IMG/VR virus record: IMGVR_UViG_3300028844_003083 | Coordinates: 1-26,612 of that record | Origin: a virus | Direction: 5' to 3' (one strand) | Length of the DNA: 26,612 nt | In this document: positions 5,412 through 10,767 of the stretch, piece by piece | Layout of the letters: every line of letters begins with the position of its first letter | How positions within the stretch are numbered: the stretch's first letter is position 1 | Notes under the pieces: model-generated | What the model was told of the DNA's origin: nothing | The model's input: the letters and a program-made list of their open reading frames with translations, nothing else | Database searches by the model: none | Translations under genes and position numbers: made by a program

Positions 5412-6533
5412 CTACTCTTTGTCTACGTCGTAAAAGTCCTCAGCGGATCCCTCCCTTTTATCAAACTTGCCGATGATTTCCTCATCCATAATCTCAAACA
5501 CTCGGTTTCTAAAGTTTTCGTTCTGTAACTTTTCAGTCCAGTGAGCCTTTTGAAACTTCTCTTCTTTACCGTCAGCATAGAAGAGTGTATACCAAGCTCC
5601 CGCATTCCTTAGATTATCCGAGCCCTTGATTGCTTCTAGCCAACTCTCTTCATCTTGAACTCCTACTTCATTAGTGCCCCAGAGAATCTTAAAAGCACAG
5701 TTTCGGCCTTGTGTTCCAAATCGTGACTTCTCCAACTTTACCTTTACCTCTGAGCCAATGCGGAAGCCGCTTTCGTCCTCAATGAAAGAAGACTTTGCCT
5801 TTCGTCCGGTTAGCCAGATTCGCAGTGAGTAAGCATAATGCATCGCCTTACCGCCAGGAGTAACATACGGAGTAGTCATAGCGATAATACGCGCATTTGG
5901 ACCAGATGGGATATTAACCTTTAACTGGTTTAGAACCAAGAATGCTGATCTAGTATTCGCAATCGGGATTGTAAGTTTAGACATTCCCTTTGATAGAATC
6001 CTAGCCTTCATCGCCATTGATGACTGTGGATTAAAGTCTCCTTCAACATCTGAAATAGTTGGTGTCAAAGCCAAAGAGTCCCAGATGAAAAGAACTCTTT
6101 CGGTTCCAGTATTCAAGATGTTTTCAACAGTTTCAAGAACATGCTCTACTGATTGAGTTTGAACATAAATCAGATCCTCCAAGTTACATCCTGCTCGCTC
6201 TAAGAACTCTGGATCAATGGCTGACTCTGAGTCTAGATAAACAACCACCATTCCCATCTTTTGAGCAGAAGCAGCAATCTGCGCAGCCATAAAAGACTTG
6301 CCTGTTGCTTCTAATCCAGCAATCTCGGAAATCTTGCCTACTGGAATACCAGCAAGTCTGCCCCGACATATAATAGAATCTAGCCAGCGTGAGCCAGTGG
6401 GAATCCACTCTTTAACTTCTGTTGGATTTGCCTCTCTTAGGTTATGAGCGACTTCCACGCCCGAAGTCTTATTGATTAAAGAACGTAGGCCGTCAATTGA
6501 GATCTTACCCGCCTTTGATTTACTTTTCGCCAT
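5412..6533 (-). CDS. uvsX: RecA/UvsX-like recombinase
   Basis: A 373-residue RecA-fold ATPase that forms filaments on ssDNA for strand exchange and recombination-dependent replication. Walker A is GLEATGKS at 73-80 (Lys79). The catalytic glutamate is Glu103 in YLDSES. Walker B is RVLFIWDSL (146-154, Asp152). LNQLK (201-205) and the TPGGKAMHYAYSLRIWL segment (about 225-241) correspond to the DNA-binding loop and following strand of RecA. The C-terminus is acidic, a common regulatory feature. Length matches T4 UvsX (about 390) better than typical bacterial RecA. ATG at 6533 overlaps the end of the upstream small membrane-protein gene by 14 nt, implying coupled translation. It probably works with the gp32-like SSB. 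Confidence 0.92.
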   Translation of the reverse strand: MAKSKSKAGKISIDGLRSLINKTSGVEVAHNLREANPTEVKEWIPTGSRWLDSIICRGRLAGIPVGKISEIAGLEATGKSFMAAQIAASAQKMGMVVVYLDSESAIDPEFLERAGCNLEDLIYVQTQSVEHVLETVENILNTGTERVLFIWDSLALTPTISDVEGDFNPQSSMAMKARILSKGMSKLTIPIANTRSAFLVLNQLKVNIPSGPNARIIAMTTPYVTPGGKAMHYAYSLRIWLTGRKAKSSFIEDESGFRIGSEVKVKLEKSRFGTQGRNCAFKILWGTNEVGVQDEESWLEAIKGSDNLRNAGAWYTLFYADGKEEKFQKAHWTEKLQNENFRNRVFEIMDEEIIGKFDKREGSAEDFYDVDKE

Positions 6534-6678: not shown

Positions 6679-6894
6679 TTACTCCGCGCTGTCGTCGTCG
6701 TCGGCCGAATCGTCGTCATCAGAGGAATCATCATCATCAGATGAGTCGTCGTCGTCACCAGAGTCGTCGTCGTCAGCTACTGACGAATCATCGTCATCAG
6801 CCTCAGAAGGACAGCCACTGAATAATACAGTAGCGAGACCCATAAAGCAAATCAAAAATACAAAAAGCATCATCTTATTTAGGTTTTTAAACAT
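6679..6894 (-). CDS. Asp-rich repeat lipoprotein (71 aa)
   Basis: The N-terminus has a lysine pair (Lys3, Lys7) and a hydrophobic core (about 8-25) ending in LFSGC, a lipobox-like site with Cys28 as the likely lipidated residue. Phe at -3 is unusual. The mature part is almost only six DDDD tetrads separated by short Ser/Ala/Gly/Val linkers (residues 33-68), giving 24 aspartates. Such a tail would be extended, extremely acidic, and able to bind divalent cations. AGGA precedes the ATG at 6894. It is followed without a gap by the small membrane peptide gene. Function unknown; possibilities include host surface modification, superinfection exclusion or lysis. Asp-Ser repeats of this type are familiar to me from deltaproteobacterial lipoproteins. 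Confidence 0.7.
   Translation of the reverse strand: MFKNLNKMMLFVFLICFMGLATVLFSGCPSEADDDDSSVADDDDSGDDDDSSDDDDSSDDDDSADDDDSAE
6688..6798 (-). repeat. 18-nt coding tandem repeat (DDDDSx units)
   Basis: Six units encode Asp-tetrads, mostly spaced 18 nt apart, with one 6-nt insertion after the first tetrad. Synonymous codons differ between units (GAC versus GAT, TCG/TCT/AGC), so the protein repeat is better conserved than the DNA. Confidence 0.85.
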
Positions 6895-6907
6895 ATTCTT
6901 ATCCTTT

Positions 6908-7438
6908 CTAGTTTAGAGTTAGTGTGCCGTTGTCGGTTTCAACTGAAACGTTGAACCCAAGAACGAAAGTATCAGCATCAAATGTTGCGAATCGCCCATT
7001 GGTTGCTGCTTGTGCGGCATAAAGATCACCAGCACGAACACGGACAGATGTAGAGATATCACAGCGACCACGCTTGTAGTCATACTGCTCGGTTGAATAC
7101 TCTAGTGAATACTCACCCTCATAAATGGTTACCTGAAGCCTCTCGGTTAGGAACTCATTAAAATACTCATCTCCTCGCTCATACTCGTCAAGCTCTCCAT
7201 CGGCGCGCATTGCGTTTAGAAGATCATTTCCTTCACTTGTACTACCATACTGGGAATACACTGGAATATTAGAAGCCAGAAGATTACCTAAGTATCCTGC
7301 TGTCTCAGTCTCATAAACTGAATCGTTGACGTAACCGTCGTTAATATGCCATACATCATTTCCCTCGGTGTATGATAGGGTTAGGAACGTATCCTCTGAA
7401 ACGTTAAGCTCGCGGAGCTTGTTAATAAAATCACTCAT
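6908..7438 (-). CDS. Acidic protein of unknown function (176 aa)
   Basis: A clear gene: ATG at 7438 with AAGGA 6 nt upstream, filling the interval between the first pseudoknot element and the lipoprotein gene. The protein is strongly acidic (many Glu/Asp and Tyr, few Lys) with no Cys pair, signal peptide or membrane segment. The central part (about residues 85-130) is Tyr/Glu-rich. The C-terminal part (about 128-176) looks beta-rich, ending in the alternating pattern FNVSVETDNGTLTLN. I recognise no family. A high negative charge can indicate a DNA mimic, but nothing else supports that here. It is probably co-transcribed with the SSB-H1-DUF262 group upstream. Confidence 0.75.
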   Translation of the reverse strand: MSDFINKLRELNVSEDTFLTLSYTEGNDVWHINDGYVNDSVYETETAGYLGNLLASNIPVYSQYGSTSEGNDLLNAMRADGELDEYERGDEYFNEFLTERLQVTIYEGEYSLEYSTEQYDYKRGRCDISTSVRVRAGDLYAAQAATNGRFATFDADTFVLGFNVSVETDNGTLTLN

Positions 7439-7473
7439 TTTCTTCCTTTATAATGTTGTTGTTGTGATAAGTT

Positions 7474-7505
7474 GAGGCATCTGTAACCCATGCCTCCCTG
7501 CGGTT
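7474..7505 (-). promoter_or_regulatory. Pseudoknot-like RNA element, copy 1
   Basis: On the minus strand, in order: AACC, GCAGG, GAGGCAT, G, GGTT, ACAG, ATGCCTC. GAGGCAT pairs with ATGCCTC (7 bp) and AACC pairs with GGTT inside that loop (4 bp), the topology of an H-type pseudoknot. It lies 36 nt before the ATG of the 176-aa gene. The stretch to that start is unstructured and rich in CAA, then AAGGA. Confidence 0.65.
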
Positions 7506-7511
7506 GTGGCC

Positions 7512-8744
7512 CTATGCGGCCAAGTCTTTTACTTCTACTAAGCCTAAGCTTCCGAGATCACTACTCGTCACAAAAGTGTCGAGGCGCGCGCAAAGATCGC
7601 GATTACGCTTAGCTCGGGGGCCCTTTTGATGGGGAAGCCCCGGCCATGCGTGGTAGTAGCGATTTCTTGTCACATCGGTAGGATCCCCACCATTGGCAAT
7701 CGTAGCGTCCTTAGCGGCGATAAAAGCTCTTTCTCCTTGATCGATTAATTCGTCATCATTCTTTTTCACAGCATTAAAGAATGCGTTGTGGTCCGCGATC
7801 ATAAAGCTATTATCATACGCCCAGGCGCAAGCCAAAATCACAGCCCATGCTGTCTTCGCTGCTATTAATTTAGATGCCGTGTAAAATGTCTGCTTTTCAA
7901 ATGTAATCATAGCCATCTCTAAAATGGCACCTACACGGTCAATCTCTGTTCTTAGATACGGAGATGTCCGAGAATCAATACTCGGTGTTTGAAGACCAAT
8001 TGTATAAAATTTATCCAGAGTAGCCGTAGTAAGGTCAGGTTGCGCTGAAAAAGAGTTGTTGTTATAACGGAGAATTAGCGCCATTGCAATCTTAACTACT
8101 AATTCGTCATCTGCCATTCTTACAACATCATCGCCTTTCACCACCCGCGATAAGGCATCTTTCCAACGATCGCGCCATGCGCGAACCTGATGAGCAATCG
8201 GGGAAGCATAAGAATTACGACCCTCTTGATTATTAGTAGCCGAGCCGCTATTTAAATCACGAAAGTGCTGTGACAGATCTTCATAAAGTGAATCAACTTC
8301 TTTTGAAAGATTGACAGGTGCAGACAAAAACTGAGTTTGTAAAACATCTGGCAGATCTTTAAAATACACATTGTTAAGATTATGTGTCACGCCGAGATTA
8401 TCCGTAAAAATGCCCGTCAATGTAGACATGTTGTTAAAAAATCTAAGGATAGTTTTAGTACGGTGCTGCCCATCAAGTGAAATGAAGGTATACCCACGCT
8501 TAAAAACCTTTTCATAAGCGTTTTTACTGTTCATTTGCCCCTTGTTTCGCGAATAGTCTAAACACGCCAAAACATCAGCAACCACTATCAAGGTATGAGC
8601 CTTTTTAGTAAAAAGCTTCAAGAGGAAGCGATTTTCCTGTTTTCTAGTCCAAGCGCCAAAGCGCCTTTGAAATGCCTTATCATAATAAACACGCGCATCA
8701 CTACATGCGCTTATAAACTGACCTACGTCCATTGGAGTTAACAT
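7512..8744 (-). CDS. DUF262/DGQHR-domain protein (ParB-like fold)
   Basis: A 410-residue protein with the hallmarks of the DUF262 (GmrSD N-terminal) and DGQHR families. FQRRFGAW (25-32) equals the YQRxYxW motif. ISLDGQHRTKTI (88-99) is the nucleotide-binding DGQxR motif. LNSGSATNNQEGRN (164-177) equals the LNxG...QExRN motif. The C-terminal ~200 residues are mostly helical and I see no HNH (DUF1524) nuclease motif. In cellular proteins such domains occur in modification-dependent restriction and phosphorothioation control (DndB). Their biochemical role in phages is unclear. ATG at 8744 follows AAGGA at good spacing. It is flanked on both sides by copies of the pseudoknot element, in a replication-gene cluster. 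A defence, anti-defence or DNA-modification role is inference. Confidence 0.72.
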   Translation of the reverse strand: MLTPMDVGQFISACSDARVYYDKAFQRRFGAWTRKQENRFLLKLFTKKAHTLIVVADVLACLDYSRNKGQMNSKNAYEKVFKRGYTFISLDGQHRTKTILRFFNNMSTLTGIFTDNLGVTHNLNNVYFKDLPDVLQTQFLSAPVNLSKEVDSLYEDLSQHFRDLNSGSATNNQEGRNSYASPIAHQVRAWRDRWKDALSRVVKGDDVVRMADDELVVKIAMALILRYNNNSFSAQPDLTTATLDKFYTIGLQTPSIDSRTSPYLRTEIDRVGAILEMAMITFEKQTFYTASKLIAAKTAWAVILACAWAYDNSFMIADHNAFFNAVKKNDDELIDQGERAFIAAKDATIANGGDPTDVTRNRYYHAWPGLPHQKGPRAKRNRDLCARLDTFVTSSDLGSLGLVEVKDLAA

Positions 8745-8812
8745 AATTTTTTCCTTTCAAGTATGTGAGCTAACAGTTCATTCAGAAACTATTAGTTCTT
8801 TTATGTTATGTT

Positions 8813-8844
8813 GAGGCATCTGTAACCCATGCCTCCCTGCGGTT
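8813..8844 (-). promoter_or_regulatory. Pseudoknot-like RNA element, copy 2
   Basis: Identical in the 32-nt core to copy 1: GAGGCAT/ATGCCTC stem (7 bp) and AACC pairing with GGTT in the loop. It lies just after the H1-like gene and 68 nt before the ATG of the DUF262 gene, followed by an A-rich leader. Confidence 0.65.
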
Positions 8845-8852
8845 GGTAGAGC

Positions 8853-9041
8853 TTACCTAGCGTTCTTAGTCTCTTGAACTTCAAGACGAAGCTCCTGAGC
8901 GAGAACTTTTACCTCTTGCATCACCTTGCGAACACGGGTTCCCGCAGCGTTGTTTCCAGCACTAAAGAACTTTTCGTGATCATCACGGGCTTCCTCAAGA
9001 AGTGTGATCAACTGTTCAAGTCGATTCGTAGTAGTAGTCAT
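8853..9041 (-). CDS. Histone H1-like (Hc1-type) DNA-binding peptide
   Basis: A 62-residue helical protein with the pattern of the bacterial histone H1-like family (Hc1, as in Chlamydia HctA N-terminus and Bacteroidota homologues). It has an N-terminal leucine-rich helix (LEQLITLLEEA), then the conserved core GNNAAGTRVRKVMQEVKVLA (residues 29-48) and a final charged helix. Chlamydial proteins add a long Lys-rich C-terminal tail; this one stops after the helical domain. ATG at 9041 has AGGA upstream, 20 nt after pseudoknot copy 3. Likely an abundant nucleoid-type or DNA-organising factor made alongside SSB. Family assignment is by remembered pattern, and function is not established for phage versions. 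Confidence 0.65.
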   Translation of the reverse strand: MTTTTNRLEQLITLLEEARDDHEKFFSAGNNAAGTRVRKVMQEVKVLAQELRLEVQETKNAR

Positions 9042-9060
9042 AACTCTTCCTTTCTATAAT

Positions 9061-9094
9061 GAGGCACCTGTAACCCTGTGCCTCCCTGTGGGTT
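9061..9094 (-). promoter_or_regulatory. Pseudoknot-like RNA element, copy 3
   Basis: On the minus strand: AACCC, ACAGG, GAGGCAC, A, GGGTT, ACAG, GTGCCTC. The stem is again 7 bp, but its closing pair is C-G instead of T-A (a compensatory change), and the loop pairing is 5 bp (AACCC/GGGTT) instead of 4. It lies 5 nt after the SSB gene and 20 nt before the H1-like gene start. Confidence 0.65.
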
Positions 9095-9099
9095 ATATG

Positions 9100-9876
9100 T
9101 TAAAGGGCGCCTAGTTCTGCGAACGCAGTTTCGACGGCATTGACCTCGCCGTCACCCTTCTTATTTCCATACTTTGAAGTCTCGCTGCTAATAGCCTCGG
9201 GATCCTCAACCTGTGCGTTGACGAAGTTATCAAGCACTGCCTGAACATCATCAGTCGTCTTACGCTCAAAGAGACCGCCAAAGTCTGGAATGTTGTCCAG
9301 AAGGTCAGCGCACTTGTCAGGAGTTAGATCCTCGCAGAGAGCGGATGAACGCCGGCGGGGAACCAACTTTGTCTGCGGGAACTGTGCTCCCGGGGGCTTA
9401 CCGTAAGTTAGAGTTAGGTCGGTGCCTGCCTCAGTGTCGGTAATATCACCATACTCAGGATTGAGCACAAGTGAAAGAAGGTTCTCGTAAGCAGTCTTAC
9501 CATATCCCCAGATGCGGATGCCCTGGTCTTCCTGACCACGAACCATTACTGGTGAGAAGAAACGCTGACGAACAAAGAGAGACTTCGCCATCTTCTTGGA
9601 TTGGTCATCGTTGTTGTTTACGCCTTCACGCCAAAGCTGTGAAGCGAAGTCGCACACAGGACAATCATCACCAAAGTTGCGCTTCGGGCAAAGGAAGCCG
9701 CCCTTTTCAACATTGTAGTGGAACCACATCTCCTTAAAGGGATCTCCATCAGCAGTAGGAACAATGCGAATGTCTTGATCACCATCCTCCGGTCGCCAGA
9801 AAACAGAATCTCCACCTTTTCCCTCACCTCGTAAGGCTGCCAGCTTTGCTCGCATTTTATCTAAATTAATACCCAT
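9100..9876 (-). CDS. gp32-like single-stranded DNA-binding protein
   Basis: A 258-residue homologue of T4 gp32, which coats ssDNA at forks and recombination intermediates. The diagnostic zinc site is present as His53-X9-Cys63-X8-Cys72-X2-Cys75 (T4: His-X12-Cys-X9-Cys-X2-Cys). It is embedded in a basic/aromatic OB-fold (WFHYNV, FVRQRFFSPVMV) typical of the DNA-binding core. A basic N-terminal segment (KMRAKLAALRGEGK, 7-20) resembles the cooperativity region. The C-terminal ~60 residues are acidic, as expected for the protein-recruiting tail. It is slightly shorter than T4 gp32 (301). ATG at 9876 has AAGGA upstream. Three pseudoknot elements follow in the next three gaps, and T4 gp32 represses its own mRNA through a leader pseudoknot. 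Confidence 0.88.
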   Translation of the reverse strand: MGINLDKMRAKLAALRGEGKGGDSVFWRPEDGDQDIRIVPTADGDPFKEMWFHYNVEKGGFLCPKRNFGDDCPVCDFASQLWREGVNNNDDQSKKMAKSLFVRQRFFSPVMVRGQEDQGIRIWGYGKTAYENLLSLVLNPEYGDITDTEAGTDLTLTYGKPPGAQFPQTKLVPRRRSSALCEDLTPDKCADLLDNIPDFGGLFERKTTDDVQAVLDNFVNAQVEDPEAISSETSKYGNKKGDGEVNAVETAFAELGAL

Positions 9877-9903
9877 TTTTATTTCCTTTCGTGGGTTAAA
9901 GTA

Positions 9904-9925
9904 CGATCAGCTAATATCCTGATCG
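9904..9925 (-). other. Stem-loop at tubulin-like/SSB gene junction
   Basis: A perfect 7-bp inverted repeat (CGATCAG / CTGATCG) with an 8-nt loop overlaps the stop codon of the tubulin-like gene, about 28 nt before the SSB start. No T-run follows. It could influence translation of SSB, but it differs in sequence from the three pseudoknot elements. Confidence 0.45.
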
Positions 9926-10767
9926 CCTAGAAGTTCGTCAATGTATTGTACCACAGACGCATACCGAATGCAATAACAATATTTTTGTTCGTAGCTCGTT
10001 CTAAACACACCATACGACACATTTGCTCCCGTGTCAAGGCGTGATTTAACAAAGTTGTTAATCTTTCTGAAGAGCGTCCCGTCGTTTTTCAGGTCGTCAT
10101 CTCCAATACCATAATAGTATACCACGTCCTTCGTATAAGTCAAGGGGTAAAACCATTTTTCTTCGTATTCGGTGTAATCGTCTCCCTCTAATGTAACTGC
10201 GCCGATCGTGCAGATCCGAGACAGTTCTGACGGGGTGATAAAGTTGCCGATTACAGGCTCTGAGTGCTTGAATACATTCATCATATGAATAATGTTTACT
10301 ATTGCCTGATTTAAAGTGTCGTAATACCCTATGATAGACATATCTCCAATGCTTCGTTCAATATAAGCATTGTTTACCATAATGATTTGCTCTATGGCGC
10401 CTGATCTAGCATATTCTTGTAAAACTGAACTAACGATTCTCTCTTGTTTCTTTTGTGTATCGGACATTATCGTTAGATCGCCCTCAATGTAAAGAACTGT
10501 GATTTTGTTGTTTTGTAGTTGTTCTAGCAACCGTAATGATCCGCCAGAGATCTTACCAGAACCGGCGATAATAGCAAGCACATCTTCATTTTGAATGTTT
10601 AAGTTTAAAGCCGGGAACTTTTCATCATACTCTTCGTGAGACTTACATTCTAAGATTGTAATCTCAGCGTCTTCGGTTGTATCAATGGAATGTGTCTCAT
10701 ATTGAGGAAACTTTGAGAAAGCCTTCGCAATATTACAGCCTGCTTTTCCTAAACCAACAACAATCAT
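9907..10767 (-). CDS. Divergent tubulin/FtsZ-like protein
   Basis: A 286-residue protein whose layout follows the FtsZ/tubulin fold. The N-terminal strand plus glycine loop is VVGLGKAGCNIAKAF (residues 3-17, cf. GxGGGGxN). A second glycine loop, AGSGKISGG (68-76), sits where FtsZ has GGGTGTG and is followed by a helix and strand (ITVLYIEGD). MVNNAYIE (130-137) and GYYDTLNQAIVNIIHMMN (147-164) match the nucleotide-contacting core helix H7. GNFITPSEL (174-182) sits where FtsZ has the catalytic NxDxAD loop. Both the signature loop and the catalytic acids are altered, so GTP hydrolysis is doubtful. Known phage tubulins (PhuZ) form filaments that centre or segregate phage DNA. ATG overlaps the MazG-like stop (ATGA). 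The assignment is inferred from pattern only. Confidence 0.55.
   Translation of the reverse strand: MIVVGLGKAGCNIAKAFSKFPQYETHSIDTTEDAEITILECKSHEEYDEKFPALNLNIQNEDVLAIIAGSGKISGGSLRLLEQLQNNKITVLYIEGDLTIMSDTQKKQERIVSSVLQEYARSGAIEQIIMVNNAYIERSIGDMSIIGYYDTLNQAIVNIIHMMNVFKHSEPVIGNFITPSELSRICTIGAVTLEGDDYTEYEEKWFYPLTYTKDVVYYYGIGDDDLKNDGTLFRKINNFVKSRLDTGANVSYGVFRTSYEQKYCYCIRYASVVQYIDELLGDQDIS

Follow-up and report, generated by a model that had tools for sequence, protein, structure and literature searches.

RNA structures around the ssb genes of characterized phages

The gene 32 operators of phages T4 and RB69 differ in sequence, yet each of the two proteins represses both operators, and thus shape can be the basis of recognition. 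In T4, an operator pseudoknot, recovered by our scan, lies 5' of gene 32 and a plain terminator (GGGGACC/GGTCCCC) lies 3' of it. The T4 gp32 protein binds the pseudoknot together with an unstructured A/U-rich leader (PMC535899; PMC3014915), and the gene 32 mRNA, which is unusually stable, has an RNase E site close to the stop codon (PMC3014915). Among cultured relatives, terminator-like hairpins follow ssb in S-PM2, S-CAM3, phiM12, SPO1, LysYB1, and Nican01, and there is almost no gap after ssb in Mel-JY01 and immuto.

The element described here is found three times in a phage sequence of 26,612 nt (IMG/VR record IMGVR_UViG_3300028844_003083), hereafter the window. Like the T4/RB69 gene 32 operator, it is an H-type pseudoknot, in this case supported by covariation, with a 7-bp stem 2, it is located beside an ssb gene of the gp32 family, and it is followed by unstructured A/U-rich RNA. 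Unlike the T4 operator, which is part of the 5' leader of the gene it controls, gene 32, the element is located 3' of ssb, outside its leader, and also after other genes, and it has a longer first loop and a near-invariant loop sequence. The intrinsic terminators found after gene 32 or ssb in T4, S-PM2, SPO1, and others occupy the same slot and consist of a stem-loop often followed by U-rich RNA. The element likewise forms a G+C-rich stem-loop where a gene ends, with its 7-bp stem shortly past the stop codon, but canonical terminators have a free loop sequence, no pseudoknot, and a U-tract, and a U-tract is absent after all three window copies.

Other described RNAs share some of these properties. 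STAXI (RF01728; Weinberg 2010, PMC2864571) also comprises pseudoknots, sometimes repeated, that are often near SSB or DNA-handling genes, but it consists of 2-3 pseudoknots arrayed in tandem, in many cases with UUCG tetraloops. Its model gave nothing above 40.5 bits in five element-bearing records, G000, G001, G005, G007, and G011 (best score, 10 bits), and nothing in the window. The L17 downstream element (PMC2864571) is likewise a structured RNA in the 3' UTR of a gene for a nucleic-acid-binding protein, with a proposed 3'-side action, but it is cellular (Lactobacillales, Listeria) and associated with an unrelated gene; its sequence and structure were compared through the Rfam scan. PeSLs, promoter-terminator cassettes known from T4-type phages (Arbiol 2010; Comeau 2014; as cited in PMC4503421), resemble the element in being repeated intergenic stem-loops that lie between small genes, but they include an early promoter, and none of the three window gaps has a promoter-like match on its coding strand.

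Three copies of the element in the window

The relevant region of the window is encoded on the minus strand. It contains a gp32-like single-stranded DNA-binding protein of 258 aa (9100..9876; Pfam PF08804, E=8.7e-15; PHROG 1192, E=1.3e-24), preceded by a leader gap of 30 nt, a histone H1-like Hc1 protein of 62 aa (8853..9041; Pfam PF07432, E=1.5e-21), a DUF262/GmrSD_N-like protein of 410 aa (7512..8744) whose match is weak and below the Pfam cut-off (PF03235, E=1.2e-4, 22.8 of 33.2 bits), a 176-aa protein (6908..7438) that gave no match in Pfam or PHROG, and a UvsX/RecA recombinase (5412..6533; PF00154, E=5.6e-36; PHROG 97, E=6.9e-55), which is the downstream limit of the element-bearing region. 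An Hc1 histone H1-like protein is encoded here by a phage, and its gene adjoins the element in many relatives. There is also a lipoprotein-like ORF of 71 aa composed mostly of DDDDS repeats (6679-6894), and acidic ORFs like this one recur in the ssb-uvsX interval of the relatives.

A preliminary description of this DNA had reported three elements with one shared architecture in three successive gaps after the SSB gene. Both the coordinates and the architecture were reproduced, the gene positions place the copies in the gaps that follow the ssb, H1-like, and DUF262-like genes, and none is expected from dinucleotide shuffles. All three copies are on the minus (coding) strand. Copy 3 (9061..9094; AACCC-ACAGG-GAGGCAC-A-GGGTT-ACAG-GTGCCTC) begins 5 nt after the ssb stop codon and ends 19 nt before the H1-like ATG. 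Copy 2 (8813..8844; AACC-GCAGG-GAGGCAT-G-GGTT-ACAG-ATGCCTC) begins 8 nt after the H1-like stop codon, with 68 nt to the next ATG. Copy 1 (7474..7505), which has the sequence of copy 2, begins 6 nt past the DUF262/GmrSD-like stop codon, with 35 nt to the next ATG. Copies 1 and 2 are identical over the complete 32 nt and 93% identical across 45 nt including flanks, and thus copy 3 provides the sole independent comparison inside the window. The change of a T-A to a C-G pair in the 7-bp stem of copy 3 is present as previously noted. The single-sequence folding energy was uninformative for copies 1 and 2 (z -1.4). The placement of copy 3 relative to ssb is repeated in 72 of 79 close relatives.

The element belongs to a widespread phage RNA family

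The window copies are members of a widespread phage RNA family. Exact matches to the pattern GAGGCAYRGGNTNACAGRTGCCTC occur in at least 119 IMG/VR stretches, and scanning 2.7 Mb of fetched loci for the family yielded 331 unique candidates compared with 18 in the reversed sequence; a loop filter kept 317 of the 331. The elements are 31-34 bases long, and all the relatives that carry them are metagenomic contigs. Tandem pairs of elements spaced by ~8 nt occur at three loci (L249, L270, L303). A blastn search with a consensus against 50,697 records of cultured phages gave no match. A search of 84,980 prokaryotic genomes for the exact pattern also gave none in their contigs, and a prokaryote origin of the element was dropped. 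In Rfam 15 there was no match at the gathering score, and none up to E=5 over window positions 6900-10000 or in six other loci; the literature searched yielded no description of the element.

The claim that an H-type RNA pseudoknot is under selection is supported by the homologues. The fold supported by the comparison of sequences combines a 7-bp stem (stem 2), with clear compensatory changes, and a 3-bp stem NCC/GGN' (stem 1). Across 118 distinct elements, 98.1% of the pair cells are standard, and 148 cells are doubly changed, against 47.6 in shuffles and 0-20 when the structure is slid; both stems contribute. Since the alignment of 118 had been chosen for stem 2 pairing, more weight should be given to a search that left this stem unspecified and to phylogenetically independent pairs. 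With the 7-bp stem unspecified, 43 of 123 matches pair at 6-7 of the 7 positions, and most of the others at 0-4. On the SSB tree, pair 7 of stem 2 changes jointly in 9 of 10 independent pairs and in the opposite sense in none, and the variable pair of stem 1 is jointly changed in ~5/5 (A/T) and 5/7 (C/G). This pair is seen as A-U, C-G, U-A, and G-C, i.e., in all four Watson-Crick types, and it is mismatched (G opposite G or A) in an H1-associated class. The matched C/G change in the second helix of the window copies also held, but the length of 4-5 bp proposed for that helix did not: among ~320 homologues the outer pairs form in 44.5% of the cells, no better than the column composition predicts, and only 3 bp are supported.

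The loops RCAGG and ACAG, as well as the GGC stem core, are near-invariant across widely differing SSBs, suggesting an exact tertiary fold or a binding partner. Two loop purines co-vary (columns 8 and 20 of alignment A1; G,G in 242 elements, A,A in 63, and mixed in 12, with 5/5 independent pairs), which suggests a tertiary contact. A RegB-type cleavage site at GGAG was considered and dropped, as the AAGGC variants lack GGAG.

Position of the element and nature of its tail

In ~90% of cases the element comes after the stop codon of a gene on the coding strand, and this gene is most often the gp32-like ssb. A same-strand ORF of at least 60 aa ends 3-45 nt upstream in 267 of the 302 elements that have enough flank, compared with 29 when the sequence is read backwards and 24 at random positions. 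The upstream genes include ssb (143, a tally enriched by the ssb-based search), the H1-like gene (46), a 67-aa family (16), an FKBP-like family (12), and others, where FKBP-like and cold-shock-like are names taken from motif reading rather than from a family search. The association of the copies with gp32-like SSB genes, proposed earlier as a check, was indeed found: 72 of 139 unique elements in pattern-found loci follow ssb, among the matches listed. Fifteen contigs of 29-194 kb carry 27 copies, 25 of them inside the ssb-uvsX interval, to which the element is confined in 14 of the 15; the exception (G003; L327) has two elements ~60 kb away from the ssb and RecA genes of the contig, one of them after a lipoprotein-like gene.

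The gene downstream of the element varies, the upstream gene being the constant neighbour, and ssb was never the next gene among the classified element loci. A start codon is found 16-45 nt downstream of 250 of 317 elements (at least 79%), and the element may therefore have a role for the downstream gene. There are tRNAs within 200 nt downstream of three elements, and several other spacers are long or promoter-like; by eye, a promoter-like sequence is present in a minority of the other loci. A tRNA-Met starts at position 8 after the element in L064 and a tRNA-Ala at position 10 in L113, so processing of the tRNA 5' end would leave the element at the 3' end of the mRNA. In four loci (L138, L155, L174, L176) a small ORF that follows ssb seemingly reads through the element, as judged by eye. 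Stop-codon readthrough or frameshifting was rejected as a function, since the stop codon and the element are separated by 6-17 nt in all residues modulo 3 and the preceding genes are unrelated.

The tail that follows the element is poor in G, which is nearly absent at positions 2-6. In the main class, 44% have TTTT within the first 10 nt, compared with 6% at positions 21-30. In the class with an 11-nt loop, TTTT is found in the first 10 nt in 8%, and the U-tract is absent in 92%. Thus, neither the window copies nor most members of the 11-nt-loop class would be intrinsic terminators by the usual criteria.

The ssb downstream slot holds exchangeable 3' structures

A search with a second, diverged SSB gave 77 usable loci. 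The element lies within 40 nt of the stop codon in 44 of them. In 18 loci a coupled small gene comes first and the element after it, in two a hairpin stands ahead of the element, and 13 lack a standard element nearby. Canonical terminators are found in the ssb 3' slot of L335, L337, and L353, and strong hairpins in that of L338-L340, L370, and L371. The 13 loci without a standard element are made up of six with terminators or strong hairpins (L335, L337, L340, L353, L370, L371), four with variants (L351, L352, L379, L392), two with a different pseudoknot, PK2 (L384, L410), and one ambiguous case (L381). The variant of L351 and L352 has an extra hairpin inside the third loop.

PK2 has the architecture CCG, GGCAGAC, CGG, an A-rich loop, and GTCTGCC, followed by ACATTTTT. 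It is present in 42 stretches, and an SSB gene precedes it in 22 of the 24 unique cases examined (L384, L410; L413-L453). At least four more H-type pseudoknots, unrelated in sequence and with mostly A-rich third loops, are found in the ssb 3' slot (L009, L107, L216, L266; L029, L055, L322; L074, L105; L095, L271, L278, L281). A strong H-type pseudoknot was detected in 26 of 42 ssb slots not scored as the element, PK2, or a coupled gene, whereas the controls had one in 32 of 509 slots. Because of the relatedness of the sequences, the p-value is not to be read literally, and the home-made energy rule also fires on the plain terminators of L335 and L337 and on the variant of L392 missed by the regular expression. 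In a quick SSB tree the element is widely spread, with several switches to or from hairpins. On the 5' side, a comparable pseudoknot is present in 26 of 257 ssb leaders against 32 of 509 control stop codons, without clear enrichment, and a 5' autoregulatory pseudoknot of ssb was rejected. The slot downstream of ssb behaves as a 3'-end slot.

Possible functions of the element

Our preferred reading, to which the comparative data lend about an even chance, is that each copy is a portable 3' boundary element of phage mRNA, i.e., a decay barrier that would also be a terminator or attenuator where a U-tract follows. The compact H-type pseudoknot, sitting directly past the stop codon of ssb and of the small genes inserted before uvsX, would most likely be a roadblock that fixes the 3' end of the upstream cistron and protects it against the 3'-to-5' decay that would follow cleavage in the G-poor spacer or at a tRNA 5' end. 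When the U-tract is present, the element would probably terminate or attenuate transcription as well. In this way it would set the output of ssb and of each inserted gene relative to the downstream genes. The structure, its conservation, the stop-codon position, the ssb-uvsX location, and the exchange with terminators or other pseudoknots are directly supported. A 3' boundary would explain how the element is spaced from the stop codon, why it is exchanged with terminators, why its tail is poor in G and rich in U, and why it can lie ahead of tRNAs and promoters. Alone, it does not account for the invariant loops, which ordinary terminators and decay barriers do not need and which suggest specific binding.

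A broader proposal, which we regard as possible but doubtful, is that, in this phage group, the H-type pseudoknot behind ssb comes from one of several families unrelated in sequence, is interchangeable with a terminator, and controls ssb output from the 3' side, possibly through SSB binding. It would be a 3' counterpart of the T4 gene 32 operator, also copied onto neighbouring genes.

The preliminary description had instead proposed that the SSB controls a downstream regulon through T4-type operators. The gp32-like SSB would nucleate on the pseudoknot and extend from there through the G-poor tail until it covers the ribosome-binding site that comes next, and would so repress the gene downstream (uvsX, the H1-like gene, or others). 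The pseudoknot and the G-poor, U-rich tail before a ribosome-binding site do resemble the T4 operator, to which gp32 binds as pseudoknot plus leader, and the cross-repression between T4 and RB69, the clustering of several unrelated pseudoknots at ssb, and the frequent start codon 16-45 nt downstream are consistent with this idea. It would explain why pseudoknots are linked to ssb, but not why they lie 3' of it rather than in its leader, nor why they are exchanged with the plain terminators that relatives and T4 have in the same slot. Moreover, tRNAs or promoters follow some elements, and it is the upstream gene, not the downstream one, that is constant, with ssb never the next gene. The regulon is therefore unsupported, and we consider an SSB-operated switch unlikely: with terminators or other RNA knots in the same spot of the relatives, a marker of the message end is the likelier role.

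It is also improbable, in our estimation, that another phage or host factor (an RNA-binding protein, an endonuclease, or a small molecule) reads the conserved loops and regulates the small ssb-uvsX operon. The near-invariance of RCAGG, the GGC stem core, and ACAG across very different SSBs and the covariation of the two loop purines would fit such a reader, but unrelated pseudoknots replace the element in the same slot, and the Rfam scans gave no match. Still more improbable is that intrinsic termination or attenuation is the main function, with the loop forming a short pseudoknot by chance. The terminator slot, the 7-bp stem, and a tail that is U-rich in roughly half of the main class would agree with it, but the U-tract is lacking in the window copies and in most members of the 11-nt-loop class, and both the loops and the second stem are more conserved than a terminator would require. 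Finally, a cassette-boundary sequence promoting gene shuffling, like PeSL elements or attC sites, is scarcely credible even though the differing small genes of the ssb-uvsX interval each have an element at their end and the G003 elements adjoin a lipoprotein-like gene far from its ssb, because the ssb and H1-like copies of one genome fall, where checked, in different classes, so that copies seem to descend with their upstream gene, and because covariation of the 3-bp stem needs single-stranded folding.

Whatever its precise role, the element constitutes a covariation-backed RNA family missing from Rfam that marks the ssb-uvsX regions of many uncultured phages. It is small enough for a reporter, in which one could test directly if the 3' ends of mRNAs are defined by phage pseudoknots. 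It would also serve to test if the relation between T4 gp32 and its pseudoknot is one instance of a more general association of pseudoknots with gp32-type genes.
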